From a virus, in the IMG/VR virus record IMGVR_UViG_3300035660_000378, positions 1-49,784 of that record: a stretch of DNA of 49,784 nt. One strand, given 5' to 3'. Under the pieces are notes generated by a model. The model was not told the origin of the DNA, ran no database searches, and saw nothing but the letters and a program-made list of their open reading frames with translations. The position numbers and the translations under genes are program-made. Below, one piece after another: positions 7,665-49,784 of this stretch; position 1 is the first letter of the stretch; every line of letters begins with the position of its first letter.

Positions 7665-7669
7665 TTGCT

Positions 7670-15810: not shown

Positions 15811-15890
15811 ATTGTTAGTATAACACAATTTCACCATATTGAAAAGAATGGAGGCAACGCTTCCTCCCCATTGCTAAAGCAAGGGGTATC
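14685..15890 (-). mobile_element. IS605-type element with TnpB only (ends approximate)
   Basis: A hairpin at 15866-15886 (CCCCA/TTGC with GCAA/GGGG) marks the left end upstream of tnpB. A hairpin at 14701-14721 (CTCC-GCC with GGC-GGAG) marks the right end, inside the last tnpB codons. Both have the A/T-loop, GC-stem look of IS605 end hairpins. The omega RNA is expected from the region around 14690-14850, with its guide taken from the bases just outside the right end (below about 14690). Exact cleavage sites cannot be fixed without the empty site. Confidence 0.65.
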
Positions 15891-30618: not shown

Positions 30619-31067
30619 CAAAATACCCGCACCGTGAACACGAACCTGGCTCCCACGTACTTCGCCTCGGGTTCGCCATACGTGAATATGACCCGTGACC
30701 AGCGCCACGAGAACGCCTTGATTCCGTCCAGCCCAAAATATGGTTTAGTGTCCTGCTGTTCGATAACATTCTGGATCGCGTCGATCAGCGGGAACAGGGC
30801 GGCCATGTCCTCGCCGATATGCGCCCGCATCTTGGCGTATAGATCGGCATGGATCGTGATTAATGTCTGCCTGACCACGGCTCGGAATGAAGACCGGTCG
30901 GCGTTCCCGCTGTCGTCCTGTCCGCCGTCTTCCGGATATACCTGCAGGAGTGGCCAGTCATGCATACCCTCGGTTAGTTTGTCCGGGGCTTGGGTGAAAG
31001 TCAGCCCCGTCGCTGCGGCAAGAGTTGTCTGGATGGCGTTGCAGATTTCTAAATATGTAATTGCCAT
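30618..31067 (-). CDS. Tail terminator/completion protein
   Basis: The 149-residue protein begins MAITYLEICNAIQTTLAAATG, followed by a compact alpha/beta pattern (WPLLQVYPEDGG, RQTLITIHADLYAK). Size, order and fold pattern fit gpU-like tail terminators that cap the tube and join it to the head. It starts with TGATG overlap with the gp10-like gene and ends with TGATG overlap with the HhH gene. Assignment rests on synteny. Confidence 0.6.
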   Translation of the reverse strand: MAITYLEICNAIQTTLAAATGLTFTQAPDKLTEGMHDWPLLQVYPEDGGQDDSGNADRSSFRAVVRQTLITIHADLYAKMRAHIGEDMAALFPLIDAIQNVIEQQDTKPYFGLDGIKAFSWRWSRVIFTYGEPEAKYVGARFVFTVRVF

Positions 31068-31558
31068 CAGGACTTGAATACCTCCCCCCAAGCACGCTCG
31101 AACCTGGCCTTGATATAATCCACCGACTTCTCCCAGGCCCTTGTGAGGAATTTCTTACCAATCGTCCCCCGCCGATGGATCGCCATTTTCACTACGTAAG
31201 GGTTTACTCCATGCCGGTCAGCCCAAACCTGGAGATTCTTGACCGATGTCCAGTGAGGACGGGTTGTCCATTCAACATAGGGTGCATATTCGACGTTCGA
31301 CCCCACCACGCCCTGTACCGTACTGCCCATCATACTCACTTCCGGGGTAATCGAAGCCCGAAGCCTGCCCGTGTCCACCCCTCCGACTTCCAGACTCTGG
31401 TATCCGACCAGGTTCAGCTTCGCCTCACGCTCCAGTTTCAAAGTGCTGTCGCGCATGGCGTTCAGCACCGGCGCACCGTGGAGGCCCGCGATCATCCTTT
31501 CCGCGTTCCTCTGCGCCTCGATCAGTCCCTGGACTTCGATGTCGATTTTTATGCCCAT
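31067..31558 (-). CDS. HK97 gp10-like head-tail joining protein
   Basis: The 163-residue protein starts MGIKIDIEVQGLIEAQRNA. It continues with GGVDTGRLRASITPE and VVGSNVEYAPYVEW, the hallmark DTGxLxxSI...YAxYvE pattern of the HK97 gp10/tail-component family. The family forms part of the neck. Upstream in-frame extension to 31795 would overlap the previous gene by 200 bases and is rejected. It lies in order between the connector and tail terminator. Confidence 0.85.
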   Translation of the reverse strand: MGIKIDIEVQGLIEAQRNAERMIAGLHGAPVLNAMRDSTLKLEREAKLNLVGYQSLEVGGVDTGRLRASITPEVSMMGSTVQGVVGSNVEYAPYVEWTTRPHWTSVKNLQVWADRHGVNPYVVKMAIHRRGTIGKKFLTRAWEKSVDYIKARFERAWGEVFKS

Positions 31559-31593
31559 GTCATCATCATAGCACAAAAGACGACTTGGGTCAA

Positions 31594-32271
31594 TTATCCC
31601 ACCGTGGGTCGAATAAACCTGCCCGATTCCAACATCCAGCGGATATCGGCATTTTCCCTGCGATAGATAAGCGTCGCCAGCTCGGGCGACGCCAGCGTAT
31701 CTGCCCATGCACTCTGCCCCTGCTTCATCCAGCGGGACGACAGGGCAATAGCAGTCTCCTTGATCACCGGCGGCACGGTCAGAGCATAGCCCCACCGGGA
31801 GGTCGCCCTCACGGTAGGCACGGCATGTGAATAACCCTCCCCGCTAGGCCTGAAACCGCGCAGTCCGGTATAGACGCTCGAGGTAAAGACGGAATAATCC
31901 CCGTTCGGGTCGCACATGATTCCGGTATAGGGAAGGCGGTTGAAGTCGGGGTTTTCCACATCCCCGCTGAATGGGATCCAGTCCGTCCCCGCCCAGGCAA
32001 CATAAGTCGTATCCGACGGGCTGTCCTTCACCTCAACCAGGGAAATCGCGGCGCATTCGTCGATCCTCTGCCAGGCTTTCCCGCTTCCAGAAAATATCCT
32101 GGCAACCCCGACAGCGGGCGCAAGGAATCCATCCGGGCGGTTACAGAAGTTGTCGATCCCCTGGCTCACCGCCTCGATTAAAACCGTCAGGGCAGCGTCG
32201 GATCCCGAACCCGTTACCCCAGTCTTGTCGATCTGTGTCCTAAGTTCAATAGGACTGCAATATTGCGTCAT
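31594..32271 (-). CDS. Head-tail connector (gp6-like adaptor)
   Basis: The 225-residue protein begins MTQYCSPIELRTQIDKTG. The N-terminal helices (ALTVLIEAVSQGIDNFCNR) followed by a beta region with CxPNG-type turns fit the gp6/gp15 adaptor that docks under the portal. GGAG precedes the ATG. It is the first structural gene after the glycan island and resumes the head-to-tail gene order interrupted at 42.7 kb. Confidence 0.7.
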   Translation of the reverse strand: MTQYCSPIELRTQIDKTGVTGSGSDAALTVLIEAVSQGIDNFCNRPDGFLAPAVGVARIFSGSGKAWQRIDECAAISLVEVKDSPSDTTYVAWAGTDWIPFSGDVENPDFNRLPYTGIMCDPNGDYSVFTSSVYTGLRGFRPSGEGYSHAVPTVRATSRWGYALTVPPVIKETAIALSSRWMKQGQSAWADTLASPELATLIYRRENADIRWMLESGRFIRPTVG

Positions 32272-32274
32272 GAT

Positions 32275-32886
32275 TTACTCCTTCCTCCAAGTCGAACATG
32301 TTGGTATCCCGTTGGCTTTCTGGAACTCATCCACTGCCAGCCTGCAACCCGGCCATGCATCGTAGTCGTCCACGATTACTATGCCGCCTGGGACGACCAG
32401 CGGGTAAAGCCATTTCAGGGTGTCCATTGTCGGCCGGTACCAATCAACGTCAACATGCAAAACGGCGATGTATTTGATGTTCGGGATGCAGGTCGGAAGC
32501 GTCTCGGAGATCCAACCCGGGATAATATGAATATTTTTTCCCGGAACCTGGGCCAGGTTTAATACTTCCTTGACCATCTTGAAGCTTCCCTTACACCAAC
32601 CGTCAGGCGCGACATGCCTGGAAACCCACTGCGACATTGCCCGACCTCCATCCTCGGCAGTCGGTTCAGGCAACCCCTCGAAACTGTCGAACATCCACAG
32701 GTGGCGCTTCTTCCCGGCCGCGTGCCAGAGGACGGCCGCGCTTCCCCCGTTCGCCACGCCGCACTCCACCACCGCGCCGGGGATCGTTTGCATTCCACGA
32801 CAATTCTCAAACAGACTTTCCAGCCCCAGCCGCGAAATCCCGGAATACTTTCTGCAAATCCCGATTACCTGGTCTCTGGTAAGCAC
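32275..32886 (-). CDS. TylF/macrocin O-methyltransferase-like protein
   Basis: The 203-residue protein has VECGVANGGSAAVLWHAAG (SAM-binding loop), MFDSFEGLPEPT, LHVDVDWYRPTMDTL and VIVDDYDAWPGC. That is the TylF family pattern, which methylates sugar hydroxyls in a metal-dependent way. The start is a GTG at 32886 with AGGAGAG upstream, overlapping the preceding methyltransferase by 22 bases. It is the last gene of the glycan island, so its substrate is probably a sugar made or attached by the neighbouring enzymes. Confidence 0.85.
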   Translation of the reverse strand: MLTRDQVIGICRKYSGISRLGLESLFENCRGMQTIPGAVVECGVANGGSAAVLWHAAGKKRHLWMFDSFEGLPEPTAEDGGRAMSQWVSRHVAPDGWCKGSFKMVKEVLNLAQVPGKNIHIIPGWISETLPTCIPNIKYIAVLHVDVDWYRPTMDTLKWLYPLVVPGGIVIVDDYDAWPGCRLAVDEFQKANGIPTCSTWRKE

Positions 32887-33530
32887 AGTTTCTCTCCTGC
32901 CTTCTTCCGCCAGCCGATCATCCCGATCAGTTCGTCGTCCACCACCAATATATCGGGTTCGCGCGCCGATTTCAAGACTTCCATCACCCGGTAGACCGGC
33001 GGGCAGGCACGGGCGGCCTCGCTGGGCGAGTAGTCGTGGAAAAGCATAACCCCGCCCGGCTCCAGTCTATCCCACCAGGGCAAATCCCTTGCCACTTGCT
33101 TGTGATCGCCGTCAACGAAGATGAAGCAGAACGGCGGGCCGGCATACACTTCCAGATAATCCCATGATGAGGCGCATTTTACCTCAATGTTCGGATAGGT
33201 TTTCAGGTTTTCGACCGCCTTGTCGTACTCCCAGGCGGTCGAGTTGAGGGTCAGGATATGCGCCTGCGGAGCGGCCTCGGCCATCACCGCCGCCGTGTAG
33301 CCGTAGTACGTCCCGATCTCCAGGATGTTTGACCCGGGAAAGTCGTAGCCCCGGATCAGGAGGTATAGCACCGTCGCCTGGTACTCGAACACGCTCCCCT
33401 TCCATCTCAGCGGATGCAATTTTTGCAGGATGCCATTGACGTCCGGGTAATGCGCCTCTACCCACACCAGGATTTCAGCTTTGGGAACGCCGGTTATAGC
33501 GATCCGGTTTGCCATCACTTCTATAGCCAT
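32865..33530 (-). CDS. Class I SAM-dependent methyltransferase
   Basis: The protein is about 221 residues from the ATG at 33530 (a GTG at 33551 is possible). It shows ILEIGTYYGYTAAVMAEAAP (motif I), FIFVDGDHKQVARDL and PGGVMLFHDYSP, the Methyltransf_24 pattern. It overlaps both neighbours. With the TylF-like gene it gives the island two methyltransferases in tandem, suggesting a multiply methylated sugar. Confidence 0.85.
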   Translation of the reverse strand: MAIEVMANRIAITGVPKAEILVWVEAHYPDVNGILQKLHPLRWKGSVFEYQATVLYLLIRGYDFPGSNILEIGTYYGYTAAVMAEAAPQAHILTLNSTAWEYDKAVENLKTYPNIEVKCASSWDYLEVYAGPPFCFIFVDGDHKQVARDLPWWDRLEPGGVMLFHDYSPSEAARACPPVYRVMEVLKSAREPDILVVDDELIGMIGWRKKAGEKLCLPETR

Positions 33531-33718
33531 AATCTCATCATGTCTTTCCACTTCACATTGATTTCATACGATCTATAGTAGGAATCCCGCCATCTGTTGG
33601 ACGTCTTGCGCCACTCGCCAATTATCACTTTGCAGGATTTTAGGGTAATTAGTGCGGCGAATATGAAGCCCAACAGAAATGCGCACAGGGCGATCAGGAC
33701 AATATATTCTATCCCCAT
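33521..33718 (-). CDS. Small single-pass membrane protein in glycan island
   Basis: The 65-residue protein, MGIEYIVLIALCAFLLGF, has an N-terminal membrane segment (about residues 5-27) and a basic cytoplasmic tail rich in Arg, Lys, Tyr and Trp. It overlaps the large glycosyltransferase upstream and the methyltransferase downstream, so it is translated with them and could tether a complex to the membrane. Not recognised. Confidence 0.55.
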   Translation of the reverse strand: MGIEYIVLIALCAFLLGFIFAALITLKSCKVIIGEWRKTSNRWRDSYYRSYEINVKWKDMMRLWL

Positions 33719-35958
33719 AGCACGCCCGCCCTTCTCATCTCCTTGATCATCTTTCCTGGCACCCGCTTGGGATCGAGTTGCCCCGGATTTCGTCCCTCCC
33801 CGCCCACGGCGTTCACGTACTGGATGACCGGCGTCTCCGTCCCCAGGATCAGTCCGGTAAACTTCCCCGCCTGGCGGTCGGCGATAACCCTGGCACTGCC
33901 ATGCTTCTCGAACTCCCAGGCGCTTTCGCTTTCGTTCAGGTAAGTCAGCATGAAGTCCCGCCTCCAGATTGCCGCCTGGATCGAGGTCTGGTAAAGCGAA
34001 TCGGGATCGGCAATGATAAAATTATCTTTATCGTCAGGCAATTTATTGACGATCAACTCCATGTGCGGACGTTTCGCCACATCGCCTGACAGGTCGATCT
34101 TCACAATTCGGGGATCTTCTAGCATCAATTCCCATGCCAACTCGAACCTCGCCAAGTCAACCCTGGCGGTCAGGAGATAATCGTCGAGCATAAAGACGAA
34201 CTGTTCCGGCGCATAAATGTCAACCCAGGCCCTGATCCCGCCCGACCAGGAATAATCCGCCTGGTAGCCGATGGAATTATTCGAAAAGTTTCCAGGGAGT
34301 CCCGGCGGCCTTACATCGTACCGCAAGACCTTTACCGGCACCTTATCGCCCCAGTTTTTATTAAAGAAATACGAAAATGCAGGCAACACTTTCACATAAA
34401 GGTTGGAAGTAGCTACGATGATAAGTTCCGCTTCCTTTTGCCCCAGGACGGCCGCCTTTGCCTCTGGCGGGACAGCCATGATCACGTCCTCCATCTGGGT
34501 GATATAGTAATCTGGGAAACCCTCGCGGATCTTGGCAAATACTTGTTCAGCGGTAGGCCACTGTTTCTTATCGCTCCCCTGATTCAATTGACCCATAAAC
34601 AGGTGGTAATCATCAATCATAATATAGTGCCGGATTCCACATCTATTAACCGCCTCGAGTTCGTCCATGATCGGGCATTCGCCAGAGGTTCCGCCGCTCT
34701 TAACCGAATCGCCCAGGTAGTGAGCATCCAGCCAGAGAAGGGCTGGCTTGTCCAACATTTTCAAAATTTCAGGCAACTGTTTCCGGGAATCGCCAAAGAT
34801 GAAGTTGATGTTCGGTTTGTCCTGGTGGATTGCCGAAGTGCGGTCGTAATATTCCTTCCATCCCTCGATCGTATAAACTTTTTTGAAGTTGGCATTCGCC
34901 CAGACTGAGCTCCAACCCTTGTATGTCCCCGTTTCAACGAACGTGTCTAACTTTGCAAAGTCTCGCAAGGTAATTGCTAATTTCGGCGGTATCCATCTAT
35001 AAATATTTCCCATTTTCAGACTCCATTCTGGCAAGGCCATTACCATATTCCATCCATGCCGTCTGACCACATTATACCCAAAATAATCGTTTTGCAAAGT
35101 TTCTGCATCGCGGGCGCCTTGCCAAATAATTATAGTATCTTTAGCATACCCGTAGTATTCATACATTTCATCGAGGAATTTCTTATCAAGCTCGGCATGA
35201 TGTTCTCCTGGCTTCCATCCTCCCCACATCGCCTGGAGCAGGAAGCCATCATGCAGGCTCCGCTCCTTCGCAAACGGGACGATCCAACCCGAACCCCTGA
35301 CCGCGTTGTTTGCCCGCTTATGCTCGCAGGCGGCCCCGGAGCAGGGCAACGGCTCGATCCGCAGCCCCATTTCCTGGACTGCCAGGCACAGGGCGCTGTC
35401 ACCGTGGTAGTGGTACATGCAAGCCGGAAACCAACCTGCCTTGTCTCCAGTATCTTTTCGCAGTACTCCGAACGAAGCCATCGGGTATCGGTCCTCGTGA
35501 TTGGGCGAAGTCTCGGGCATCCTGACCACAGCCCCGCTCGGGTTGCGATAGGGAAGCGATATGATCCCTATGTCAGGGTTTGTCCTTAGCAAAATGACCG
35601 CCTCTTCCAGAATATCCCGTTTCAATTCCAGATCATCGTTGATGTAGGCGACAAACTCGCCCAGGGCGGCGTGGAAGGCGTCGTTATAAGCAGCGACTGG
35701 ACCTCGCAGTTCGCCATGCCGGATCGTCTTTATGTCGGATTGAAGCGCCAGCCATTTCAAAGTCCCGTCCGTCGATCCGCCGTCCGTGATGACGATCTCG
35801 TAGGAAAGTTTCCCGACCGCCTTGCGGATGCTACCGACGCAGTCCATGAGCATCTGCAATCTATTAAACGTTCCCAAAACTATACTTAAATCAGGCATAG
35901 GTATTGCCACCAAATTTAAAAACGCTCTGTCAGGACTGTCATAAAGCGCGCCATCCAT
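33709..35958 (-). CDS. Three-domain glycosyltransferase (GT2, methyltransferase-like, second GT)
   Basis: This is a 749-residue protein; an ATG at 35898 (start MPDLSIVLGTFNRL) is an alternative start. Residues about 21-260 are a GT2 domain with SIVLGTFNR, DGGSTDGTLKW and the metal-binding YINDDLEL. Residues about 330-490 look like a SAM methyltransferase (FVETGTYKGWSSVWA, IFGDSRKQLPEIL, LLWLDAHYLGD). Residues about 515-749 contain a further transferase-like region with FVFMLDDYLLTARVD. Fusions of this kind build and cap glycans. It is the largest protein of the island. Donor and acceptor are unknown. Confidence 0.78.
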   Translation of the reverse strand: MDGALYDSPDRAFLNLVAIPMPDLSIVLGTFNRLQMLMDCVGSIRKAVGKLSYEIVITDGGSTDGTLKWLALQSDIKTIRHGELRGPVAAYNDAFHAALGEFVAYINDDLELKRDILEEAVILLRTNPDIGIISLPYRNPSGAVVRMPETSPNHEDRYPMASFGVLRKDTGDKAGWFPACMYHYHGDSALCLAVQEMGLRIEPLPCSGAACEHKRANNAVRGSGWIVPFAKERSLHDGFLLQAMWGGWKPGEHHAELDKKFLDEMYEYYGYAKDTIIIWQGARDAETLQNDYFGYNVVRRHGWNMVMALPEWSLKMGNIYRWIPPKLAITLRDFAKLDTFVETGTYKGWSSVWANANFKKVYTIEGWKEYYDRTSAIHQDKPNINFIFGDSRKQLPEILKMLDKPALLWLDAHYLGDSVKSGGTSGECPIMDELEAVNRCGIRHYIMIDDYHLFMGQLNQGSDKKQWPTAEQVFAKIREGFPDYYITQMEDVIMAVPPEAKAAVLGQKEAELIIVATSNLYVKVLPAFSYFFNKNWGDKVPVKVLRYDVRPPGLPGNFSNNSIGYQADYSWSGGIRAWVDIYAPEQFVFMLDDYLLTARVDLARFELAWELMLEDPRIVKIDLSGDVAKRPHMELIVNKLPDDKDNFIIADPDSLYQTSIQAAIWRRDFMLTYLNESESAWEFEKHGSARVIADRQAGKFTGLILGTETPVIQYVNAVGGEGRNPGQLDPKRVPGKMIKEMRRAGVLWG

Positions 35959-35983
35959 TTATGTATTCTGTTCAGGAAAAACT

Positions 35984-36973
35984 TCATATAGAATAAGTAT
36001 CACGCCACCACTGGACAACTTGCGGTATTCCTTCATTTAGTCGAATGAATTTGTGGATCCCAAATTCTGCCATATATCGGGAATTACTTAAGGTTAGATT
36101 TTCCGGTGTCCCTGCAACGCCCTTATTCTCCTCTGGTATTATCACATCCACGCCAGCAGCTTTACCGATTTCTTCCGCAACACCCCGGATAGTCGTTACT
36201 TCATCACTGGTGACATTGTAGACTTCTTGCCTGCCATAAAGCATGATTTTCAACAATAAAGTAATTCCATCCTGCATGGCGGTAAATGATCGTATCACGT
36301 TCCCGGCGTCCATTAGGCGGATAACCCCGTCCCTGACAGCCCGCTCGATGAACGATGCCCAGGAACGCCGGTCGCCAGGGCGCACTCCAGCCCCATAGAT
36401 GATCCCCGGCCTGACCGCGACGGTCGAAATCCCTCGTTGGCGGTAAAGGTAGGTGATTGCCTCCCCAAACATCTTGCCCTGGATGTAACAGGCGCGCGGA
36501 TGGTAAGGCGTGATCTGCCCGATGCTCTCCTCGGTCAACGGAAGCTCGTCTTTGCAGCCGCAATAGACCTCCGAGGATGAAATATACATAAACCTTCCCC
36601 CAGGATTGACCCGTTCCAAAAGAGCCATGACCCCGTAAGCCGATGACCGCAATGCCATCAGTGGCTCGGCCATAAAGCGCATCGGCTGGGCGTAACTCGC
36701 CGCGCTGATCACGAAATCGGCGTAGGGAAGGCGGGCGCAATCCCCAGGATTAGCAAGATCGGCGTAAACCAAATCTCCCCTTTCTAGGTAGGTTTCCGGC
36801 GCCCGGGTATGTACCACTGCCGTCACCTTTTCAATGATACCAAATTTCATCGCTTGCTCCAATGCCCTTAGGAGGTTAGAACCCAAAAGACCACTCGCTC
36901 CCGTCAGCATCACCGACCGGCCTCGCAGTGGCTCGAAATTGACGACCTCGAAAGTATCCATTATGCTATTCAT
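35984..36973 (-). CDS. NAD-dependent nucleotide-sugar epimerase/dehydratase
   Basis: The 329-residue extended SDR protein has GASGLLGSNLL (NAD-binding GxxGxxG), ISSSEVY, the YxxxK catalytic pair in CYIQGKMFGEA, and RPGIIYGAG. Enzymes of this type interconvert or dehydrate NDP-sugars. Its ATG overlaps the stop of the transketolase C-terminal gene (ATGA). Together they suggest on-site synthesis of an unusual sugar nucleotide. Confidence 0.88.
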   Translation of the reverse strand: MNSIMDTFEVVNFEPLRGRSVMLTGASGLLGSNLLRALEQAMKFGIIEKVTAVVHTRAPETYLERGDLVYADLANPGDCARLPYADFVISAASYAQPMRFMAEPLMALRSSAYGVMALLERVNPGGRFMYISSSEVYCGCKDELPLTEESIGQITPYHPRACYIQGKMFGEAITYLYRQRGISTVAVRPGIIYGAGVRPGDRRSWASFIERAVRDGVIRLMDAGNVIRSFTAMQDGITLLLKIMLYGRQEVYNVTSDEVTTIRGVAEEIGKAAGVDVIIPEENKGVAGTPENLTLSNSRYMAEFGIHKFIRLNEGIPQVVQWWRDTYSI

Positions 36974-37830
36974 TTCGCAAACTCCTCACATCTTTCCCGG
37001 ATCGCCTGGGCGCTTATCCCGGCCTCCGTTTCAAGTTTCTCTAGACTCCCGCTCTCATGCAAAATTTTCCGACTTACTCCAATCGAGACTAGGCGCGTCC
37101 CTTCTGGCAGGAATCGCAATACTTCCTCGGTCAGGACTGGGTAATACGGCTCGATCAGTACCGCTGTTTTCGTCCTTATTCTTGCCAGACGCAACCCATC
37201 GAACGGGACAACTGTATCGTAGTGGATGAAATCTAATGGCCAACCCGCGAAAGCCTGCTGCGCCGCTAGGACGATCGGCCCGACCGTGATCACCGTGAAC
37301 CAGGGCTCCTTGTCCGCATGGATCTCGTCGAACCAGACATGCCAATTACCGGATGAGAGGCGGATGTAATGGCTATTACCATCTGGCTCGTTTACCGCGC
37401 CCGCCAGGATATGGTGCAGGCGGTACTTGTCCGCGGGCAAATGGATCCGCATTCCTGGCACCTGGTACATCAGGGCTACATCCGCCGGGCAGTGGTGGGT
37501 AACGCCTTCGGCGTGATAGTCGAACGATGCCCCGACGCTGACCAGGATCGCCTTCAGCCCATTATGCCCCAGGTCGAGTTTTATCTGCTCGTATGCCCGC
37601 TCGACCAGGAACGGTGCGATGGAATGGACGATCGGGACCATGCCCGCCTTCGCCAGGCCCGCCGCCATCCCGACCATCGCCTGCTCTGATATCCCGCAGT
37701 TGAGTACATGCCCCGGGTATTTCTCAGCGGCATGCCTGAATTGCCAGACGCCGATGTCACCGAGCAAGACCATAATCCGGTCGTCCTTTGTCATCAGTTC
37801 GGCAACCGTGGAAACAAACTGGTTTCTCAT
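36970..37830 (-). CDS. Transketolase, C-terminal (PYR and C) subunit
   Basis: The 286-residue protein has the pyrimidine-binding domain of transketolase-like enzymes: LNCGISEQAMVGMAAGLAKAG (the catalytic Glu in SEQ), HSIAPFLVERAYEQIK and GASFDYHAEGVTHH. A C-terminal domain follows. The ATG overlaps the upstream N-terminal subunit gene (ATGA), so the two halves are made together and should form one enzyme. Split transketolases are common in bacterial sugar pathways but unexpected in a phage structural operon. Confidence 0.9.
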   Translation of the reverse strand: MRNQFVSTVAELMTKDDRIMVLLGDIGVWQFRHAAEKYPGHVLNCGISEQAMVGMAAGLAKAGMVPIVHSIAPFLVERAYEQIKLDLGHNGLKAILVSVGASFDYHAEGVTHHCPADVALMYQVPGMRIHLPADKYRLHHILAGAVNEPDGNSHYIRLSSGNWHVWFDEIHADKEPWFTVITVGPIVLAAQQAFAGWPLDFIHYDTVVPFDGLRLARIRTKTAVLIEPYYPVLTEEVLRFLPEGTRLVSIGVSRKILHESGSLEKLETEAGISAQAIRERCEEFAK

Positions 37831-38516
37831 CTCAGTTCCTGCATGATCTCCTGGTATTCCTGATCATTCGGCTGGCGGTGGTGCCACGCGCCAGGGTCTT
37901 TCTCCATCCGTTTCACACCTTTGCCCTTCACGGTATCCATGACCACGATCAGTGGCAGGTCATAAAGCCCGATATTCTGCGTTAGTAAACCCTGCTTCCA
38001 GCCTAAGATTTCGAACTGCGAACCATAAAATCCCTGGTGGGTAAGGTTGTTATCAACAACTGCCACTACCGGCAATTCAAGCCTCGCGGCAAGCCTTGCT
38101 GCCTCCCAGACGCTTCCCTCCTGGCACTCCCCGTCGCCCATCAGGACGTAAACGATCCCCGGCTCCTTTTTCAATCTCATCCCAAGGGCGAGACCGGCGG
38201 CGAACGCCAATCCATGCCCCAGCGATCCGCTTGAAAACTCGACGCCTTCGCAAAGAAGTCGGTCTGGGTGACCAGGCAGCCCGCCCTCCCCGAATCTATC
38301 CAGCGTCCCCTTTGATAAGATGCCCTGCTTTTCCAGAACCGCGTAAAGCGCAAGCGCGGCGTGACCCTTGCTCAGAATGAACCGGTCTTCTGGTTTCTTA
38401 TGGGCATAAACCCATTGGATGATGTCCACGCATGATAGCGAGCTGGCAATGTGACCCGCCTGTACCTTGTAAGCCACTTCGACGATCCTTCTCCGCAGAT
38501 CAAGGTTTTCGGTCAA
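37827..38516 (-). CDS. Transketolase, N-terminal (thiamine diphosphate-binding) subunit
   Basis: The 229-residue protein contains VQAGHIASSLSCVDI, FILSKGHAALALYAVLE, SGSLGHGLAFAAG and the TPP motif VLMGDGECQEGSVWEAARLA...DNN. Start appears to be TTG at 38516, overlapping the preceding stop (TTGA). The enzyme moves two-carbon units between sugars. In surface-glycan clusters such pairs can make branched or altered sugars. Here it probably feeds the adjacent epimerase and transferases. Confidence 0.9.
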   Translation of the reverse strand: MTENLDLRRRIVEVAYKVQAGHIASSLSCVDIIQWVYAHKKPEDRFILSKGHAALALYAVLEKQGILSKGTLDRFGEGGLPGHPDRLLCEGVEFSSGSLGHGLAFAAGLALGMRLKKEPGIVYVLMGDGECQEGSVWEAARLAARLELPVVAVVDNNLTHQGFYGSQFEILGWKQGLLTQNIGLYDLPLIVVMDTVKGKGVKRMEKDPGAWHHRQPNDQEYQEIMQELR

Positions 38517-39379
38517 AACCCAAACTCCTCTCGGATAATCCCTCTCAGCTGCGCCGCCCGGATCTCCCAGGTGTGGTTTTCCATGACCAGTTTATGCCCG
38601 GCATCGGCGTACCTCTCCCAACCATCGCCCCCTAGAAGTCCCCGCAGGATGTCAGGCAGTTCCGCCTTATCCCTGTATTCGACATAATGTGCGCCCAACA
38701 CCAGACCGTCGCCTGGCACTTTCGGGATAGGCGCGGTCACGATGCAGCATCGGCAGGCCATCGCGTCGAATATCCGATGTGGACGGTTGATCGGCGTCCG
38801 CGGCCAGTTAACCACGACCTTGCTCAACCCCATGTCAATGGCATAAAGGTCAAGCCCAGTTGTCCCGCTCACGTACGACCAGCCGCTGTTGGCGCAGAGT
38901 CCACTTAGATAACCACGCAGGGCGTCCCTTTCAAGGCCCCCGGCATAACCCTTGTGCGCCCCGCTACTGCACCGAAAATTGACATCGATGGATTTCCCGC
39001 TAGGGACAAATATATGGTCGTTCACGCAATAGTTCCATTGCCTAACCTTCCTGCATCCGGGAAAACGGGTCTCGCTGTCATGGTCAAGCAGAACCAGGTC
39101 AGCCCGCCGCGCCTTGTCAATCCTGGTCCTGTAGTGCAGTTCGTCCAAGGTGGAGTCAATGCTCATAAAGATCGACGGAAGCCCCCGACTGTCAGGGAAC
39201 GGCGCGCCGTCCTCCACAAACATTAGGTCATACTTGGTCGCCTGGAAATTGACCCCCGGCGTCAGGCAATCCCACGAAAATTCAGGGACTTGATAAGACC
39301 AATAACCCATATTTCGCTTGTCCCGCTCCAAGGTGGCAGGCGTCCCCTTTACCAGCAAAGCAACTTGTAAAGGTGTCAT
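38513..39379 (-). CDS. Glycosyltransferase, group 1-like
   Basis: The protein is about 288 residues from the ATG at 39379 (start MTPLQVALLVKG, AGGATGAG upstream); an ATG at 39424 is possible. The C-terminal part has NWPRTPINRPHRIFDAMACR and HTWEIRAAQL, matching Glyco_trans_1_2 proteins; the N-terminal part has FVEDGAPFPDSRGLPSIFM. It lies immediately downstream of a TnpB remnant right-end hairpin, so its upstream region was altered by that element. Substrate is unknown. Confidence 0.75.
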   Translation of the reverse strand: MTPLQVALLVKGTPATLERDKRNMGYWSYQVPEFSWDCLTPGVNFQATKYDLMFVEDGAPFPDSRGLPSIFMSIDSTLDELHYRTRIDKARRADLVLLDHDSETRFPGCRKVRQWNYCVNDHIFVPSGKSIDVNFRCSSGAHKGYAGGLERDALRGYLSGLCANSGWSYVSGTTGLDLYAIDMGLSKVVVNWPRTPINRPHRIFDAMACRCCIVTAPIPKVPGDGLVLGAHYVEYRDKAELPDILRGLLGGDGWERYADAGHKLVMENHTWEIRAAQLRGIIREEFGF

Positions 39380-39444
39380 AATCTCATCCTGATCAATTCC
39401 AAGTCCAACCATCCACGCGCGCATAAGTAAAAATCTTATGGATG

Positions 39445-39462
39445 CAGCCGGTAACCCGGCTG
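39445..39462 (-). other. IS605-type right-end hairpin of a TnpB remnant
   Basis: CAGCCGG and CCGGCTG form a perfect 7-bp stem with a TAAC loop, just downstream of the TnpB C-terminal remnant. The position and form match right-end hairpins of IS605 elements, whose transcripts form the scaffold of TnpB guide RNA. Confidence 0.55.
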
Positions 39463-39471
39463 ATGCAGGAT

Positions 39472-39747
39472 TTATACATTTCTGATACCTGCTTCCTGGT
39501 TCACAGTGAGCACTAATCTACTCAACTCCCCAGGCAATCCCCGCTTGTTTAGCGGTTTAATATATTGCGCCAAGTTTCTAGCGGCATTCAGGTCTCGATT
39601 AATTATCAACCCACATTTATCGCATTTATATGTGCGTTCATCTAACCCCAATTCATCTTTCTTGTTCCCACACTTCGGGCAAGTCCATCCAGAGCAATTG
39701 GTAATAATTTCTGGCTTTGCCGGTGGTGTCCTTTCAGGCCTATTCAT
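39472..39747 (-). pseudogene. TnpB C-terminal remnant (zinc ribbon and RuvC-III), possibly still translated
   Basis: A 91-residue ORF carries only the end of TnpB: CPKC, CDKC and NRDLNAARNLAQY (the third catalytic Asp), then LTVNQEAGIRNV. The first ~300 residues of a TnpB, with two catalytic acids, are missing, so no nuclease activity is expected. Its ATG overlaps the stop of the upstream glycosyltransferase (ATGA), giving it a coupled start. It belongs to a different TnpB subgroup from the intact copy at 14680, so it records a second insertion. It may be plain debris or a kept zinc-ribbon protein. Confidence 0.8.
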
Positions 39748-41420
39748 CTGTGTTTCTCCGCAAACTTCTTTACCGCCTGCCACGCCTCAGGACTGTCGCT
39801 CCGGGGATGCACCACGCCCTCCCAGCGCCTCGCCGTAGTCGGGTAGTGTAGCAGCCACGCGGCGCGATCTGCGGAATCATACCTCGTCACCGTATTCCAC
39901 TCGTTTCCCAGGACGTACAGTTTAAGCGGGCAGGCCCACATCGCCCGGATAAGGGCAGACTGGTCGCGCTTCCCGTACCGATTCCACTCCACCACCCAGG
40001 TGTCAAAAAACATCTTCGTCCGCTCGTTTCTCTGGAAACTCAACACTCCACCGTTCCATTGGATGATGTTGTCAGTCCCCGTGATCCGGAAAGTCTCGTC
40101 ACAGTCGCCCTGGTTATCAGGCCTACGCATGTTCGTGGCGACGTGGAAGCGGGTCGGGTTCTTGCAGATCGCCATGTCCCAACCGTCCTCGACCACCTGC
40201 CAAAGAAGCTCATTACGGGCGATTATCTCCGTATCGGCGTCTAGATAGACGACATGGCTCCAGGACGCCGGAGTAAGATCGAACATCATCACCTTCGCCA
40301 GCCTGGCCCCGATGTCCACGTCCGGGCGCTGAATGAAATAATCCTCAATCCCGAGCGGACTGTCACTGGCAAGAGCCACCGGGATCTCAGGGAAGTAGCG
40401 CTTAAAACTGTCAATTGCGGCTATAGCGCAGTCCCGCGCCTGCTTCCCGAACGCCACGTAGAATACGCCCCTCTTGTTTTCCTTCGGGAAAGTCGTAGGC
40501 TTCCTAGACTTCTTTTCAACTGAAGCCATCGTGGGGGTTCTAGTTTCCTCGACCAGATGCACCGCCTTCCAGTGGGAGTTGACCGCCTGCTGGTGGTCCT
40601 TCGCCCAGTTCTCCGGCGTGTATTCCCGCACCGCATTCCGCAATGCCTGCCGGTCAACCATGTTTATCTCCTCCAGCGCCTGCCCGATGGCAGTCCGCAG
40701 GCCCGGTATGCTCCCCCTCTCATACTTGTAAATTCCTTTAATCTCTGGCAACTCATCCATGATCCCCAAGTCTTTAGGTATCACGACAGGGATGCCGCAG
40801 GCAAGCGCTTCAAGCGGAGGCATTGGCACGCCCTCCATCAGCGACGAACAGACGAACAGGTCGAGCGAGTTGTACCAGGCGGGAAGCTCGGAGATTCTGT
40901 GTTCCCGAGTCTCAAATGGCCATCCCCCGCCCGTCCCGATCCATTTTGCCTTGAAAAACCCCGTGACGGAAGCCAGCACCTGCTCCCCTTTGCGCCTCGA
41001 CCGCGGATCGACGAACCCGCTCACCCCGACCACCGGAGTATCAGACTTTGTCCGTTCCATGATCTTGAATATGGGATCGACCGGCGGCCTGACTTTTGCC
41101 CTAGGCGACCCCAGGATGGCCAAGTACTTGTCGGACGAGCACAGGCGCAATCCCACGTCCCTGTCGGCGATCTTCCAGAACATCTCCTTGAACGGCGTCC
41201 CGACTTCGTAATGGGTGAAGTAGGCCATCGTCTTTGTCTTGTCCCGCCAGTCGGCGAACTTCTCCGAATATTCGATATAACAAAAGTAGTAGTTTATATG
41301 GGCGTTAGGCGACGGCCTGTCCCCCGCCGTGCAGCCGAAGTAGTCAGCCAAGAACCGGGCCTTGCGGGGGAGGATCTTCTCGGTGTCGAAATCGCGGCAG
41401 ACGATGTGGACTGTTTTCAT
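39744..41420 (-). CDS. Two-domain glycosyltransferase (GT4-like plus GT8-like)
   Basis: The product is about 558 residues from the ATG at 41420, which overlaps the preceding stop (ATGA). The N-terminal half has the GT-B pattern with SSLMEGVPMPPLEALACGIPVV (the conserved EGxPxxxLEAxAxGxPVV site). The C-terminal ~210 residues are a GT-A nucleotide-sugar transferase domain with HVVYLDADTEI (DxD), NGGVLSFQRN and DQSALIRAMW. Two transfer steps may thus be joined in one protein. It neighbours a single-domain paralogue of its C-terminal half. Confidence 0.82.
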   Translation of the reverse strand: MKTVHIVCRDFDTEKILPRKARFLADYFGCTAGDRPSPNAHINYYFCYIEYSEKFADWRDKTKTMAYFTHYEVGTPFKEMFWKIADRDVGLRLCSSDKYLAILGSPRAKVRPPVDPIFKIMERTKSDTPVVGVSGFVDPRSRRKGEQVLASVTGFFKAKWIGTGGGWPFETREHRISELPAWYNSLDLFVCSSLMEGVPMPPLEALACGIPVVIPKDLGIMDELPEIKGIYKYERGSIPGLRTAIGQALEEINMVDRQALRNAVREYTPENWAKDHQQAVNSHWKAVHLVEETRTPTMASVEKKSRKPTTFPKENKRGVFYVAFGKQARDCAIAAIDSFKRYFPEIPVALASDSPLGIEDYFIQRPDVDIGARLAKVMMFDLTPASWSHVVYLDADTEIIARNELLWQVVEDGWDMAICKNPTRFHVATNMRRPDNQGDCDETFRITGTDNIIQWNGGVLSFQRNERTKMFFDTWVVEWNRYGKRDQSALIRAMWACPLKLYVLGNEWNTVTRYDSADRAAWLLHYPTTARRWEGVVHPRSDSPEAWQAVKKFAEKHR

Positions 41421-42013
41421 CTCAAAAAGCCAAACTTGTGCTGTACGATTATACCATTGTTCCATGCCTTGCCAAGACACCAAATCTTAAGCGGGCATCG
41501 CGCCAGCGCCCGCGCGAATGCCCCTTGGTCTTGCCCCTGCCAGCGCTCCCATTCTTCGCGCCAGAAATTCCAAAGCCTCTCGACCCGGTTGTTCTTCTGG
41601 AAGAACATGACCCCGCATTGCCACTGCAGCCCCGCCCAGGCAATCCGCGTCTCCAACTTCTCATCGCCAGACAAATGCCAGTAAGAATCATCACCCTGGT
41701 GGTCACTGAATGCCATCGCTATGTCCCACCCGCCGTCAAGGATTTTGAATCCGGCGGAAATGTCTCCCAGAACACGGGTGTCCGCGTCCAGGTAAAGGGT
41801 CTGGTCAAACGGCGTCAGCCAATACAGTTTGGTTTTCAATGCCCTCGATCCCCAAACGAAATCCGTTTTACCAAGCGGAGGATAGCCCGATAATTTGATT
41901 GAAGGATCAGTCAATATTTTTACCGGCAAATCCAATCCTTTGGCGCTCAGCCTTTGCTCTGCCTGCGCCTTTTCCCCCAGAGCAATATAAACCACGCCCC
42001 GACTACATGACAT
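41417..42013 (-). CDS. GT8-like nucleotide-sugar transferase, single domain
   Basis: The 198-residue protein resembles the C-terminal half of its neighbour: GVVYIALGEKAQ, TLYLDADTRVLG (DxD metal site), CGVMFFQKNN, DQGAFARALARCPLK and a C-terminal KAWNNG. Tandem duplication and fusion are likely. It overlaps the next gene by 4 bases and the preceding one by 11. Substrate is unknown. Confidence 0.78.
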   Translation of the reverse strand: MSCSRGVVYIALGEKAQAEQRLSAKGLDLPVKILTDPSIKLSGYPPLGKTDFVWGSRALKTKLYWLTPFDQTLYLDADTRVLGDISAGFKILDGGWDIAMAFSDHQGDDSYWHLSGDEKLETRIAWAGLQWQCGVMFFQKNNRVERLWNFWREEWERWQGQDQGAFARALARCPLKIWCLGKAWNNGIIVQHKFGFLR

Positions 42014-42623
42014 TCTGGCCAGTCCAGGTGATCGGCAACGCCAGGATAAGCGGCTTGACCTGGTAAAGCGCCCGCAGGAAGGCCAGGCATTGGTTCCCCT
42101 CCTCTTTCCGCCAGATGTCGATCAGCGCCCGCGTGTTCTCGCAGTCCCTGGCAAAGATCATCCGTATGTCGTAGACCGGGACGCGCAGATCATGGATCAC
42201 CGCCTTCGTCTTCTCCCTGTCCGCCTCGCTCCCGATGTGAAGGGCGAGTGTCTCGTAGCTCAACAACGGCACGGCAATCTCCCATGTCCCGAGCAGGGCA
42301 AGACCGGTCATACAGAACCGTTTGGAGAACCCTAGTTCCCCTGACCACCAGATGTTGTATTTCGTTTTCATCACCAGAGGGCTGTTAATGACCGGCATCT
42401 GAACCCCCATCACGTTCTGGATCGCCAGCGGAGAATCGGCGAAGATTGTCGTATCCGCGAACGACAGGGCGTTCATCACCGTCTCGTCCGGGAACATCGC
42501 CTTCCCCTCGCGCACCAGCATCATCGCGTACTGCTTGCCAACGTCGACCCAATCCCCCGCGTTATAGTTCTTGCGCTCCCCGCGCGTGTCGATTACGACA
42601 GGCAAGAGAATCTGAATCCACAT
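42003..42623 (-). CDS. Hypothetical protein, first gene of the glycan island
   Basis: The 206-residue protein begins MWIQILLPVVIDTRGERKNY, then NAGDWVDVGKQYAMMLVREGKA. That N-terminus resembles a small domain common in phage head proteins (expects a value, then GDxVxV...A..LV..GxA). The rest (FCMTGLALLGTWEIAVPLLSYETLALHIG) is not recognised but its DIRMIFARD...IDIWRKEEGNQCLAFLRAL end recalls the neighbouring transferases. It could link the virion surface to glycosylation. GGAGG precedes the start. Confidence 0.5.
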   Translation of the reverse strand: MWIQILLPVVIDTRGERKNYNAGDWVDVGKQYAMMLVREGKAMFPDETVMNALSFADTTIFADSPLAIQNVMGVQMPVINSPLVMKTKYNIWWSGELGFSKRFCMTGLALLGTWEIAVPLLSYETLALHIGSEADREKTKAVIHDLRVPVYDIRMIFARDCENTRALIDIWRKEEGNQCLAFLRALYQVKPLILALPITWTGQNVM

Positions 42624-42717: not shown

Positions 42718-43152
42718 TTAGTCGGTTATGGTGTCCACCAACGTAGTAGGCACTGGGGCGAACCGAGGCTCGAGGCCAAAGATTGCCGCGCAGAAGATGC
42801 AGGACGCCTGTCCAGCGGGCGTCATCTCCAGGTTCAGGCAGTCGAACCCACCCGCCACGTCGAACTCGGACGACTTGATCTCGATGATGGAAAGAGTGTT
42901 GTTGTCCGTGGTGGCGGTCAGGGTGATGTCCTTGCCGTAAGCGTCAAATACCTTGCCGTCAGTTCCGGCGGTCGTGGTCGCCTGCTCCACATCCACATCG
43001 ACGTTCCCCGCCAGCGTGCCAGTCGCAATCAGGATCACGCCGCGATGGTAATTCGCGAATGAAACGTAACCCGTATTTTGCTCCGTGGTGTAGGCGGCGG
43101 GGGCAATCGACGCAAGATAGGCATGTACTTCGCTAAATCTTTCTGTATACAT
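42718..43152 (-). CDS. Capsid decoration-like protein
   Basis: The 144-residue protein begins MYTERFSEVHAYLASIAPAAY; the ATG at 43152 has GGAGG upstream. It is beta-rich (YVSFANYHRGVILIATGTLAG, ITLTATTDNNTLSIIEIKSS). A small beta-rich protein directly after the major capsid gene is the usual position of capsid cement or head fibre proteins. It is a plausible acceptor for the glycans made by the island that follows. No sequence family is recognised. Confidence 0.6.
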   Translation of the reverse strand: MYTERFSEVHAYLASIAPAAYTTEQNTGYVSFANYHRGVILIATGTLAGNVDVDVEQATTTAGTDGKVFDAYGKDITLTATTDNNTLSIIEIKSSEFDVAGGFDCLNLEMTPAGQASCIFCAAIFGLEPRFAPVPTTLVDTITD

Positions 43153-43167
43153 TTTTGTTACCTCCAT

Positions 43168-43275: not shown

Positions 43276-44607
43276 TTACGTGCTCTTGGCCCCGAGGACC
43301 ACAAAAGGAGAAACAGTTGTTACCCCATCTTCCAGAGTGAGGGGGGTCGAAAGCCATGGCTGGCCATCCACGCGGTGAACGGCGCGCCACGAGGTTTCGT
43401 CGTAGCGGAAACGCTCGATGTTCGTGCTATCAATCGTGGTAGCCTGGCGATCCCCGATCAGGTAATAGCGCGGGTCGGCAAGCAGGATCGATCCGGCTGT
43501 TCCAGGCGGGGGCAGTTTTTCGGTAAAGATAAACGGGTAGCCCAGTAAGTTCGGGGGCATCCCCGCCTGTGCGTTGCCCCAGACATATGAGGCATTGCCA
43601 GCGGGACCGTTCATCAGCCAGAGGTCGCTCATGTGGCGCTGATTGATAAACCAAACTCCGTTAGCCCCAGGCAGGAAGGACTCGACCATCGACACAAGGT
43701 CGGTATAGATATTCGCCGGGATCGGAGGACTAGTTGTCGGGGTTACCGCGATGGTAGCCCCAGCGTTAATCACACCCAGGGGTTGGCCAGCCCCAGTGCC
43801 GCGCAAGAAAGCGTATTCTTCGTACCAGCGGATTGCTCCGGCAAATCCGAGAGGACCGCGCAGGAATGCGTCCAAGCCAATCGCGCTGTCATCCAGAAGC
43901 TCATCGGTAGTGCGGGTGTAGCAGATGAGTTTGTGTGCGACGAGCTCGATCTGGCGGAATTTTGCGTCTGCCTGGGATTTGGTGCCACCTTCCTCAGTCC
44001 AGTAGGCCTGGATGCCGCCGAACCAGTGGGCGATGCCCGCGGTCGTGGTCGTCTGGTCCAGGACGGGGATATTAATCTGGCGTCGGCGCATCGGAATGAC
44101 CGTCGCCCGGGCACGCCAGGGATTATCTGCGGGCGTCACTGCCTGCAACTGGGCAAGGAACTCGGTCGGGATCAGGAACCCGCCATAGGCCCCCACTCCG
44201 CCTTGCATGGTAACTTTCTGCTCCCATTCGGTCTTGCCGGTATGCTTTACCTCGGTAGGCGCTTCACCCTCGTCGCCCTTCCAGTTGAAAAGGCGCGGGT
44301 CAAGCGGGCCGCGGTATTTGACGTTTCCCGCCAGCGCGATTGCGCTCCAGAACTCGCGTAACTCGTTCCACTTCATGGGAGTATTGGGATCGGGCGGGAG
44401 AGTGTCTTTGATGTGGGGGGCAATGTCATCCACTGCCCCAAGGATTTCACTCAGCTTCGCGGCGCGCACTTGAAGCGCCTTCGCATCAGCCATTTTCTTT
44501 TCGGCGTTCTGCTGGTCTTCCGCAGTAGCCTGGTCGTTGGCATAAACTGCCTTGACCTCTTCGAACATGATACTGGCACGCGCCAGCAGTTCTTTTATCT
44601 CGGACAT
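43276..44607 (-). CDS. Major capsid protein, HK97 fold
   Basis: In this 443-residue protein the N-terminal ~75 residues are a coiled-coil delta/scaffold domain (EVKAVYANDQATAEDQQNAEKKM) probably removed by the protease. The capsid domain shows GGFLIPTEFLAQLQ, RRQINIPVLDQT, AHWFGGIQAYWTEEGG, IELVAHKLICYTRTTDELL, LRGTGAGQPLGV and PFIFTEKLPPPGTAGSILLADPRYYLIGDR, the standard Phage_capsid sequence order. It follows the protease gene by three bases. Hundreds of copies build the icosahedral head. Confidence 0.95.
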   Translation of the reverse strand: MSEIKELLARASIMFEEVKAVYANDQATAEDQQNAEKKMADAKALQVRAAKLSEILGAVDDIAPHIKDTLPPDPNTPMKWNELREFWSAIALAGNVKYRGPLDPRLFNWKGDEGEAPTEVKHTGKTEWEQKVTMQGGVGAYGGFLIPTEFLAQLQAVTPADNPWRARATVIPMRRRQINIPVLDQTTTTAGIAHWFGGIQAYWTEEGGTKSQADAKFRQIELVAHKLICYTRTTDELLDDSAIGLDAFLRGPLGFAGAIRWYEEYAFLRGTGAGQPLGVINAGATIAVTPTTSPPIPANIYTDLVSMVESFLPGANGVWFINQRHMSDLWLMNGPAGNASYVWGNAQAGMPPNLLGYPFIFTEKLPPPGTAGSILLADPRYYLIGDRQATTIDSTNIERFRYDETSWRAVHRVDGQPWLSTPLTLEDGVTTVSPFVVLGAKST

Positions 44608-46365: not shown

Positions 46366-46583
46366 TTGAACTCCGACGGGTGCCCGGGGCGTGGCCTACC
46401 CAACTCGATTACCTTATGGGGCGTGGCCAGCAGGATCGCGATAGCCGCATCATGGCACATCGCAAGGTAGTCCCGGATCGCCTGCTCATCCTGCTCATTT
46501 TGCAGGCGGTCGGCGATCGCTGACGCCACCTGGTTGTTAGGGAGTAGTGGTTTCAACTCGTCCAGTAGACTTTGCTTGGTCAT
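46362..46583 (-). CDS. Small hypothetical protein following gp7-like gene
   Basis: The 73-residue protein starts MTKQSLLDELKPLL and is helical (ASAIADRLQNEQDEQAIRDYL). The start overlaps the gp7-like stop and the stop overlaps the next gene (ATGA), so it is part of the head operon. Not recognised. Confidence 0.55.
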   Translation of the reverse strand: MTKQSLLDELKPLLPNNQVASAIADRLQNEQDEQAIRDYLAMCHDAAIAILLATPHKVIELGRPRPGHPSEFK

Positions 46584-48349: not shown

Positions 48350-49784
48350 CCTTTGCCTCCAAAAGCAAATCGGTCGCCCGCTTCAACTCGTTGGCCAAGG
48401 CCATGATCGCCTTACCGGTTGTCCCCGCCTGTTCTGCTTCCTGCCCGGCTTCAGGGATATTGCCTTCTTCTGGCGTCGGTGCGGGTTTCTCAGTCGTCAC
48501 TGTTTCGCCTGGGATTCCCGTTTCAATTTCCTCTTCCCCGACTTTACCGACCGGAATGAGGTTCATCGGCATGTAAATCATGTCGCCGTCTGGCAATTGC
48601 CCCACTTCCAGTCCAGTGATTACCGCTGCCTGATACTTACTTACCCCGTATCCGACTAGAGACGTGAATGCCGTCACCAGGGCCGGCGTGTCCTGGCGCA
48701 GGGCGGGGATGTCCGAATAGTCGTTCTTTACCCAGCCCCCGTCGTCGCTCTGCATGTAGTATTGGTGGTCGGTCTCGAACAGACTGGCCTCGCCCAGGGC
48801 GACGTCCTCCCAGAAGGCTTTCCTTGCCTCCTGGTAATTGGCGTAGGTCGAATTGTGAACCAGTATCCCATCAGCAATAAAGGAGTGTCCACCTTCTACT
48901 TCAATATCATAAACCGTTTCAACTGATTGTTTTTCTATGGAAACAACCTTATAAAAACCAAGATCGTCAGACAAGTCAGCCTTCTTTGCATCAAAGCTAT
49001 CTGGCTTATAACGTCCCAAGTTGGCATTAACTCTCTCGCGATACAGGGTATCTGCAAATGGGATTTGTGCTACTTGCCTTGCACTAGACGCCACAAAACT
49101 GTAATTGTGGTAAATCTCTTTTATCCCTCTTTGCGGCAAAACACTTGGGGAAAGTTGATCGTGCCGAATGTTACTGCATTGAATACCAGCAGATATCAAC
49201 AATTCGCGAACATCATAGGTAAGTAATTCATTACAAAATGCAAACTTGAGTACACCCCGTTTATCTATGCTCCCGTCGGTGTCCACCAATCCTGCGAGAA
49301 AATTCAACCGGAGCTCCCGCGAAAGACCATAAATCCAGTGTGGAATACGTTTAGTGTGTGCCCGTTCCCCAAGACCCAATGCCCTGAGATACTCCGCATT
49401 CTCGGACACTCTAAAATTAAAACTTCGAGGGCAATCTGTTATATGAACCGATCTGGAAACCGGAAGTAAGGTATCAACTTCTATCACTGGTAGATAAGAT
49501 AATTTGTAGGACGATTCATATTTGCATTCCTTACTGCAATAACGCCCGCGCCCATCTTCTACCCTGATCCTCCGAGTATGAATATCTTTACCGCAATGCA
49601 GACACTTTGTAGTAACTTTCTCGACCCGATTTTCCATTCGAGAAAATAATTGTTCTACCAAAGATTGGTAATGATCCCGGCATCGACCCTGAGGAGGCAT
49701 CGCCATTAAGACCATCCCATTACCATAAACAGTTCCATCACCTATCAATGCCCCGCAGAATTGAATAAACTCTCTGCTGGCAGG
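48330..49784 (-). CDS. Portal protein, rest of intein and C-extein (continues from position 1)
   Basis: This is the 3' part of the portal gene described at 1-1515. After the intein end (Asn codon at 48854-48852) the C-extein of 173 residues starts STYANYQEARKAFWEDV, the segment that in HK97-type portals directly follows the PPxLIG motif. The C-terminus is Glu/Pro/Thr-rich and likely flexible. The stop at 48330 lies within the start of the gp7-like gene. Bases 49599-49784 duplicate 1-186. Confidence 0.92.
   Translation of the reverse strand, partial: PASREFIQFCGALIGDGTVYGNGMVLMAMPPQGRCRDHYQSLVEQLFSRMENRVEKVTTKCLHCGKDIHTRRIRVEDGRGRYCSKECKYESSYKLSYLPVIEVDTLLPVSRSVHITDCPRSFNFRVSENAEYLRALGLGERAHTKRIPHWIYGLSRELRLNFLAGLVDTDGSIDKRGVLKFAFCNELLTYDVRELLISAGIQCSNIRHDQLSPSVLPQRGIKEIYHNYSFVASSARQVAQIPFADTLYRERVNANLGRYKPDSFDAKKADLSDDLGFYKVVSIEKQSVETVYDIEVEGGHSFIADGILVHNSTYANYQEARKAFWEDVALGEASLFETDHQYYMQSDDGGWVKNDYSDIPALRQDTPALVTAFTSLVGYGVSKYQAAVITGLEVGQLPDGDMIYMPMNLIPVGKVGEEEIETGIPGETVTTEKPAPTPEEGNIPEAGQEAEQAGTTGKAIMALANELKRATDLLLEAKDAGSPK
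48852..49784 (-). mobile_element. Portal intein, endonuclease and C-terminal splicing domain
   Basis: Here the LAGLIDADG endonuclease continues. Four Cys residues at about intein positions 180, 183, 202 and 206 (CLHC...CSKEC) form a zinc finger between the two LAGLIDADG motifs. The second motif is FLAGLVDTDGS near residues 281-291. C-terminal splicing blocks are VYDIEVEGGHSFIADGILVHN, with penultimate His and terminal Asn, before Ser+1. Both LAGLIDADG acidic residues are kept (ALIGDG and GLVDTDG), so the nuclease looks active. Confidence 0.92.
49599..49784. repeat. Terminal direct repeat, right copy
   Basis: This matches bases 1-186 except at 49657 (A here, G at 59). On the minus strand the difference changes one codon of the intein between GCA (Ala) and GTA (Val). 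It indicates two sequence variants or an assembly error at the join. Confidence 0.93.

Follow-up and report, generated by a model that had tools for sequence, protein, structure and literature searches.

We analysed the 49,784-nt viral record IMGVR_UViG_3300035660_000378 from IMG/VR over its whole length (the window), in which positions 32275–42623 hold an island of sugar-modifying and glycosyltransferase (GT) genes. The ends of the record (1–186 and 49599–49784) form a direct terminal repeat of 186 nt with 99% identity, and the record is therefore a terminally redundant complete genome of ~49.6 kb. The island occupies 10.35 kb of the minus strand, or 21% of this genome, and its co-directional genes mostly overlap or abut; the widest intergenic gap (39425–39743) has the C-terminal remnant of a TnpB gene inside it. 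Head genes flank the island, with portal, MuF, protease, major capsid protein (MCP) and decoration-like genes on one side, and head-tail adaptor and neck genes on the other. The features are as follows.

43276–44607, minus strand: MCP, HK97-type, phrog_10 major head protein (E 2e-46); the anchor of the island.
42718–43167, minus strand: decoration-like protein, predicted to be a β-sandwich in an AlphaFold2 (AF2) model.
42003–42623, minus strand: GTa, no Pfam match; small N-terminal β domain and a GT-A-like domain without DxD.
41417–42013, minus strand: GTb, GT8-like with DxD; weak match to Pfam Glyco_transf_8.
39744–41483, minus strand: GTc, recognised by Pfam; two domains, with a GT4-like N-terminal half and a GT8-like C-terminal half.
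39472–39783, minus strand: TnpB/IS605 OrfB C-terminal remnant between GTc and GTd; Pfam Cas12f1-like_TNB (E 5e-11).
38513–39424, minus strand: GTd, GT of the Glyco_trans_1_2 family (Pfam E 1e-8).
37827–38516, minus strand: N-terminal, thiamine pyrophosphate (TPP)-binding subunit of a split transketolase; Pfam Transketolase_N (E 1e-16).
36970–37830, minus strand: C-terminal, pyrimidine-binding subunit of the split transketolase; Pfam Transket_pyr (E 3e-26).
35984–36973, minus strand: NAD-dependent epimerase/dehydratase for nucleoside diphosphate (NDP)-sugars, of the short-chain dehydrogenase/reductase type; Pfam Epimerase (E 1e-26).
33709–35958, minus strand: GTe, 749-aa fusion of a GT2 domain (Glycos_transf_2, E 2e-18), a methyltransferase (MT)-like domain and a third, possibly GT-like domain.
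32865–33551, minus strand: S-adenosylmethionine (SAM) methyltransferase; Pfam Methyltransf_24 (E 1e-13); recurrent 3′ anchor of the island.
32275–32886, minus strand: TylF-like sugar O-methyltransferase; Pfam TylF (E 5e-36).
31594–32271, minus strand: head-tail adaptor, phrog_442 (E 1e-7); downstream border of the island.
31067–31795: neck, beyond the adaptor side of the island.

The original prediction had described this region as two methyltransferases, an NDP-sugar epimerase, a transketolase pair and four to five GT genes within a late structural operon, and every listed component is present, on the minus strand and where it was expected. Five genes are indeed GT-like, but the GT count needs qualifying, as GTa lacks DxD and GTe is a multidomain GT/MT fusion. 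The predicted share of one fifth of the genome agrees with our figure, and the view that the island splits a normally continuous head module is fair, since Caulobacter phage W2, whose capsid is related (37% over the matched part), has a single hypothetical gene between MCP and connector. Placement in the late operon is also borne out, with co-directional genes and, in a simple scan, no terminator-like site between the decoration gene and GTa. The arrangement is not a chance one, because the tested catalytic motifs are intact and it recurs in dozens of contigs.

This recurrence was defined from 158 loci fetched with the MCP and GT genes, of which 119 were distinct after removal of duplicates; the contigs are metagenomic. 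The GTb and GTc profiles each gave more than 200 confirmed viral-contig stretches, and the best 80 were kept per search. Decoration genes were sampled through the fetched loci, the whole-family profile being too diverged to serve as a query. The order (MCP)-decoration-GTa-GTb-GTc is kept, with rare exceptions, in the 81 distinct loci that hold decoration, GTa and GTb genes. Of 82 cases, 75 have GTa immediately before GTb, six have genes inserted between the two, and one has them swapped. Where at least 3 kb was available upstream of the first core GT (73 distinct loci), an MCP-like gene lies within 3.5 kb upstream in 72, at a median distance of 549 nt. This capsid link is not built into the sample, because most of the 73 loci were fetched by GT similarity.

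Between GTc and the adaptor the gene cargo varies, and 19 complete islands span 3.3–9.2 kb, compared with 10.4 kb in the window. The relatives carry methyltransferases, GT2 enzymes, epimerases, sulfotransferases, radical SAM/SPASM proteins, GDP-mannose dehydratase, UDP-glucose dehydrogenase and GT47 enzymes at this place. Homologues of GTd occur in 24 of the 119 distinct loci, and matches to the Methyltransf_24 gene (32865–33551) in 41, often directly before the adaptor gene.

A second capsid clade carries a related layout. In 22 of 23 further loci found with GTc and having enough upstream sequence, a distantly related MCP lies upstream, and in 21 of those 22 GTc starts less than 170 nt from the matched end of the MCP, so that no decoration gene stands between them. 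Beyond GTc, in the downstream direction, there is usually a GTa homologue that lacks the N-terminal domain, and GTb was not seen in these loci. From this layout, the minimal conserved set is MCP, GTc and GTa.

The core genes also diverge along with the capsid. Across 55 phages, Mantel correlations with MCP distance were 0.46 for GTa, 0.39 for GTc, 0.37 for the decoration gene and 0.25 for GTb, each matched by at most one of 999 permutations, and the strongest distance correlation was that between GTa and GTc (0.57). These results bear on the suggestion that GTa, GTb and GTc act on a tail tube, fibre or host protein and merely sit at an insertion hot spot tolerated behind the MCP. The site does accept insertions, as the cargo turnover and the TnpB remnant show, and the tail tube is also a target of mycobacteriophage GTs (PMC12619734). 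The core itself, however, is stable and MCP-adjacent in two capsid clades, and its divergence tracks that of the MCP; we regard this reading as unlikely.

GTa and GTb are homologous in profile comparison (hhalign probability 98.3%, E 1e-14, 122 columns), and DxD, at the YLDADT-type position of GTb, is present in 88 of 88 GTb rows and 0 of 88 GTa rows. Pfam returned nothing for the window GTa and nothing useful for 12 of its homologues. The AF2 model of GTa (pLDDT 87) matches GT-A-type enzymes (VIA Z 8.5–9.2), with the first domain of the PBCV-1 capsid GT A064R (A064R-D1) at the top (Z 9.2), tied with blood-group transferases; the small N-terminal domain is separate and conserved. Because GTa is a GTb homologue in which DxD is missing throughout, it is probably an inactive enzyme, a pseudo-glycosyltransferase that would keep a binding role as an adaptor. 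DxD is conserved in GTb and in the GT8-like half of GTc, and the Glyco_transf_8 match (E 0.001) falls below the curated cut-off; GTc is conserved over eight diverse relatives, and the catalytic motifs tested in both are intact. Searched by tblastn against 50,697 phage records, the three core genes gave no match; sequence homology to GTs of isolated phages, which is typical though not strictly defining for known cases of virion glycosylation, was thus not seen for them, and a nucleotide search of the same kind of records with the island region was likewise empty.

The cargo of the window includes predicted sugar-making enzymes. The N-terminal transketolase subunit matches the split-chain transketolase 6yak best in the PDB (E 1e-36) and has an intact GDG...NN motif, and the C-terminal subunit keeps the glutamate motif GISEQ. 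With separate TPP-binding and pyrimidine-binding subunits and these catalytic motifs, the pair has the make-up of a split-chain transketolase. The nearest PDB entry to the epimerase is a UDP-glucuronate decarboxylase (E 1e-17), and both GxxGxxG and YxxxK are intact. The middle domain of GTe matches Pfam Methyltransf_24 (E 0.0016). The TnpB remnant, inserted between GTc and GTd, does not belong to the functional island. A different, full-length TnpB-like gene is found at 14680–15837 of the window.

In one relative (L133) the gene order MCP-decoration-GTa-GTb-GTc-GTd-transketolase N-transketolase C-epimerase-GTe-MT is the same as in the window. The TnpB remnant is missing there, and GTc and GTd overlap. 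Cassette genes from GTd onwards are 36–52% identical between the two, with the MCP at 48%, and codon changes peak at third positions in all five genes tested. On this comparison the transketolase-epimerase cassette reads as long established in the island and maintained by selection, not as a recent passenger, because L133 keeps the order at an MCP-like divergence and the changes favour third positions.

For 21 of the split transketolases in 26 other viral contigs (L026–L051), an epimerase-type gene lies no more than 4 kb away, and the two probably form a recurrent sugar-making unit, possibly an undescribed one for nucleotide sugars. No contig among the 26 matched the Pfam phage-capsid family, from which we draw no conclusion on their capsid context, and the window epimerase had zero further carriers in the viral contigs searched. 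A literature search on split transketolase in nucleotide-sugar synthesis returned nothing relevant, and we therefore leave the sugar unnamed. The presence of a transketolase pair could instead mark the sugar genes as auxiliary metabolic genes that supply the pentose phosphate pathway or nucleotide sugars and have no virion target. We consider this extremely improbable, as the pair accompanies five GT-like genes and methyltransferases and the neighbourhoods of the 21 contigs are of a nucleotide-sugar and not a central-carbon kind.

The island proteins (maximum KD19 1.59), the GTa and GTb sequences of the 88 rows and 59 cargo proteins from relatives all lack transmembrane (TM)-like segments, and no flippase or membrane GT occurs among the island and cargo proteins. 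The absence of TM-like segments counts against envelope conversion of the Gtr type. An island that changes the host surface polysaccharide (lipopolysaccharide, capsule or teichoic acid), for example to exclude competing phages or alter a receptor, would fit the TylF, GT2, epimerase and transketolase set, which looks like bacterial polysaccharide loci, and the PHROG matches include GtrB-like and GT morons. The GtrB similarity is, however, confined to the GT2 domain, and the island forms part of the head operon, with a link to the capsid gene that persists across its relatives; on balance, we judge a host-envelope target unlikely.

Glycosylation of phage DNA, as a base hypermodification against restriction and CRISPR, is very unlikely in our assessment. 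Phage GTs that hypermodify DNA form a known, varied group (Pyle et al. 2024, cited in PMC12619734), and a weak PHROG match to DNA methyltransferases exists for one of the methyltransferases in the island. The genes, however, sit with head and not with replication genes, and belong to families of the kind that handle surface sugars. No thymidylate-synthase-family gene (PF00303) that could supply hydroxymethyl pyrimidines is present in the genome, while 9 of 14 control genomes were positive, and this absence counts against base hypermodification.

Virion glycosylation through a capsid-linked modular island is the best explanation, and on the gene evidence a moderately probable one. Linkage to the capsid gene speaks for an acceptor in the virion, which would be modified in the cytoplasm. 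Virion proteins as targets had been proposed in the original prediction, and this part gains from the late-operon location, the capsid link, the soluble enzymes and the lack of a thymidylate-synthase-type gene. Its tentative choice of the decoration protein as acceptor is not supported as worded, given that GTc stands straight behind the MCP in 21 of the 23 second-clade loci; since no decoration gene intervenes there, the sugar could be attached to a different protein. The MCP would be at least an equal candidate in light of that clade, and an acceptor that is the MCP or another virion protein appears more likely than the decoration protein alone.

The decoration protein is still a possible acceptor. 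Its C-terminal tail is conserved and richer in Ser/Thr than the body (0.229 compared with 0.149 across 81 homologues), and could be a glycosylation site. The AF2 model (pLDDT 82) matches the phage-derived XepA and YomS best (VIA Z 10.4 and 9.7) and also a capsid chain of phage Carin1 (8cjz_A, VIA Z 8.2). We derive no function from this fold, as the PDB matches were common β-sandwiches and the BFVD matches mostly uncharacterised phage proteins.

We propose that the GTa-GTb-GTc core, expressed together with the head genes, would act in the host cytoplasm and begin glycan synthesis on an abundant protein of the virion, most likely the MCP and, as second choice, the decoration protein. GTa, with catalysis probably lost, would hold the acceptor protein for GTb and GTc, and GTd and GTe would lengthen the glycan. 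The epimerase and split transketolase would produce an unusual activated sugar or supply its synthesis, and O-methylation of this sugar could fall to the two methyltransferases together with the MT-like part of GTe. Swapping of the cargo behind GTc among phages would then give each its own surface sugar. A more specific version is a widespread, hitherto undescribed phage ‘serotype locus’, in which GTa, as a conserved pseudo-glycosyltransferase, is a capsid-docking adaptor that steers the GT8-type enzymes to the MCP and an exchangeable cassette sets the glycan, and phages would change their capsid sugar coat in the way that bacteria change O-antigens; we offer it tentatively, as a possibility below even chance.

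Several points weigh against this proposal. Adjacency and correlation are no proof of a target, and sugar on the virion proteins is deduced from the genes. The Mantel correlations are of moderate size, shared descent accounts for part of them, and the evidence does not single out one acceptor. Loss of DxD does not prove that GTa is inactive, and the second domain of PBCV-1 A064R (A064R-D2) is an active, cation-independent GT (PMC9614988).

Elsewhere in the window, intein-like inserts are present in two head genes, namely that of the MuF-like head protein (46580–48349; Cys...His-Asn/Cys borders) and the portal gene (48330–49784), which continues across the ends of the record and contains an HNH/helicase-intein-like stretch. 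The gene of a pentapeptide-repeat protein (9359–10171) contains a 15-nt unit 24 times. At 7667–7966, an array with a 36-nt period alternates the conserved 9-mers GGCTCGCTT and GGGTTGCTC with variable 9-mers between them, and reads on the plus strand as MARFxxxGYS repeats. Its spaced pattern occurs in 55 viral-contig stretches, among them one with 15 copies (L213) and two in the contig of the island relative L059 (L224).

When ~390 genomes from each of two phyla were searched with the GTb profile, only one clear match was obtained, in a Phycisphaerae metagenome-assembled genome (MAG). This contig (L020, LJUF01000001.1) holds MCP, decoration, GTa and GTb homologues together with phage head genes. 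As the sole clear match of the core genes in the bacterial genomes searched is such a contig, we leave the host open, with a weak hint towards Planctomycetota.

Virion glycosylation has been shown in very few tailed phages, and the island predicts it, with a fixed gene order, for many diverse uncultured phages of two capsid clades. It also provides two GTs that lend themselves to testing, one that seems to have lost activity and one predicted to be active, and defined candidate acceptors. If the proposal is true, many environmental phages would encode swappable sugar coats that affect adsorption and recognition as well as the stability of the particle, and protein shells might be glycosylated with these GTs as tools.

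We found no published description of such an island, in a search that mostly did not reach subscription literature. The closest in proposed function are mycobacteriophages, in which GTs encoded by the phage add sugar to capsid and tail tube (Freeman et al. 2023, cited in PMC12363180 and PMC12619734). In Che8, Corndog and Myrna, according to the same sources, the proposed targets of phage-encoded GTs are, as in the island, the capsid or further proteins of the virion. Glycans have been shown there, whereas here they are predicted from genes, and the island differs further in its conserved, MCP-tied multi-gene core and variable sugar-synthesis cargo.

The capsid of chlorovirus PBCV-1 is glycosylated by soluble virus-encoded GT/MT fusions, and its system (A064R, A061L) shares with the island mostly soluble GTs, multidomain GT/GT/methyltransferase proteins and O-methylation, there of capsid glycans (PMC9614988). 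In plan, GTe resembles these fusions with its GT2, MT-like and third domains. PBCV-1 differs in being a eukaryotic virus with dispersed genes, and its likeness to GTa is, as far as shown, structural. Neither a conserved partner lacking DxD nor an operon linked to the MCP is known to us from PBCV-1.

For GTa, the best functional parallel may be GtfB of streptococci, a chaperone of GtfA that binds the acceptor (PMC6973325). In that system a priming pair of an active GT and its partner is conserved and the downstream GTs vary, a plan that the island would share. GtfA and GtfB, however, share DUF1975 and modify serine-rich adhesins, while the island pair is GT8-like and viral; no Pfam domain was found in GTa and none of the DUF1975 type in GTb. 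The GtrABC cluster for O-antigen conversion in temperate phages is likewise a phage GT cluster, and the GT2 domain of GTe is weakly GtrB-like, but the membrane proteins GtrA and GtrB are lacking in the island, which is not in a lysogenic-conversion position. The island is best compared with phage-encoded virion glycosylation, sharing its proposed function and differing in its enzymes, capsid-linked core, putative pseudo-enzyme partner and exchangeable cargo.

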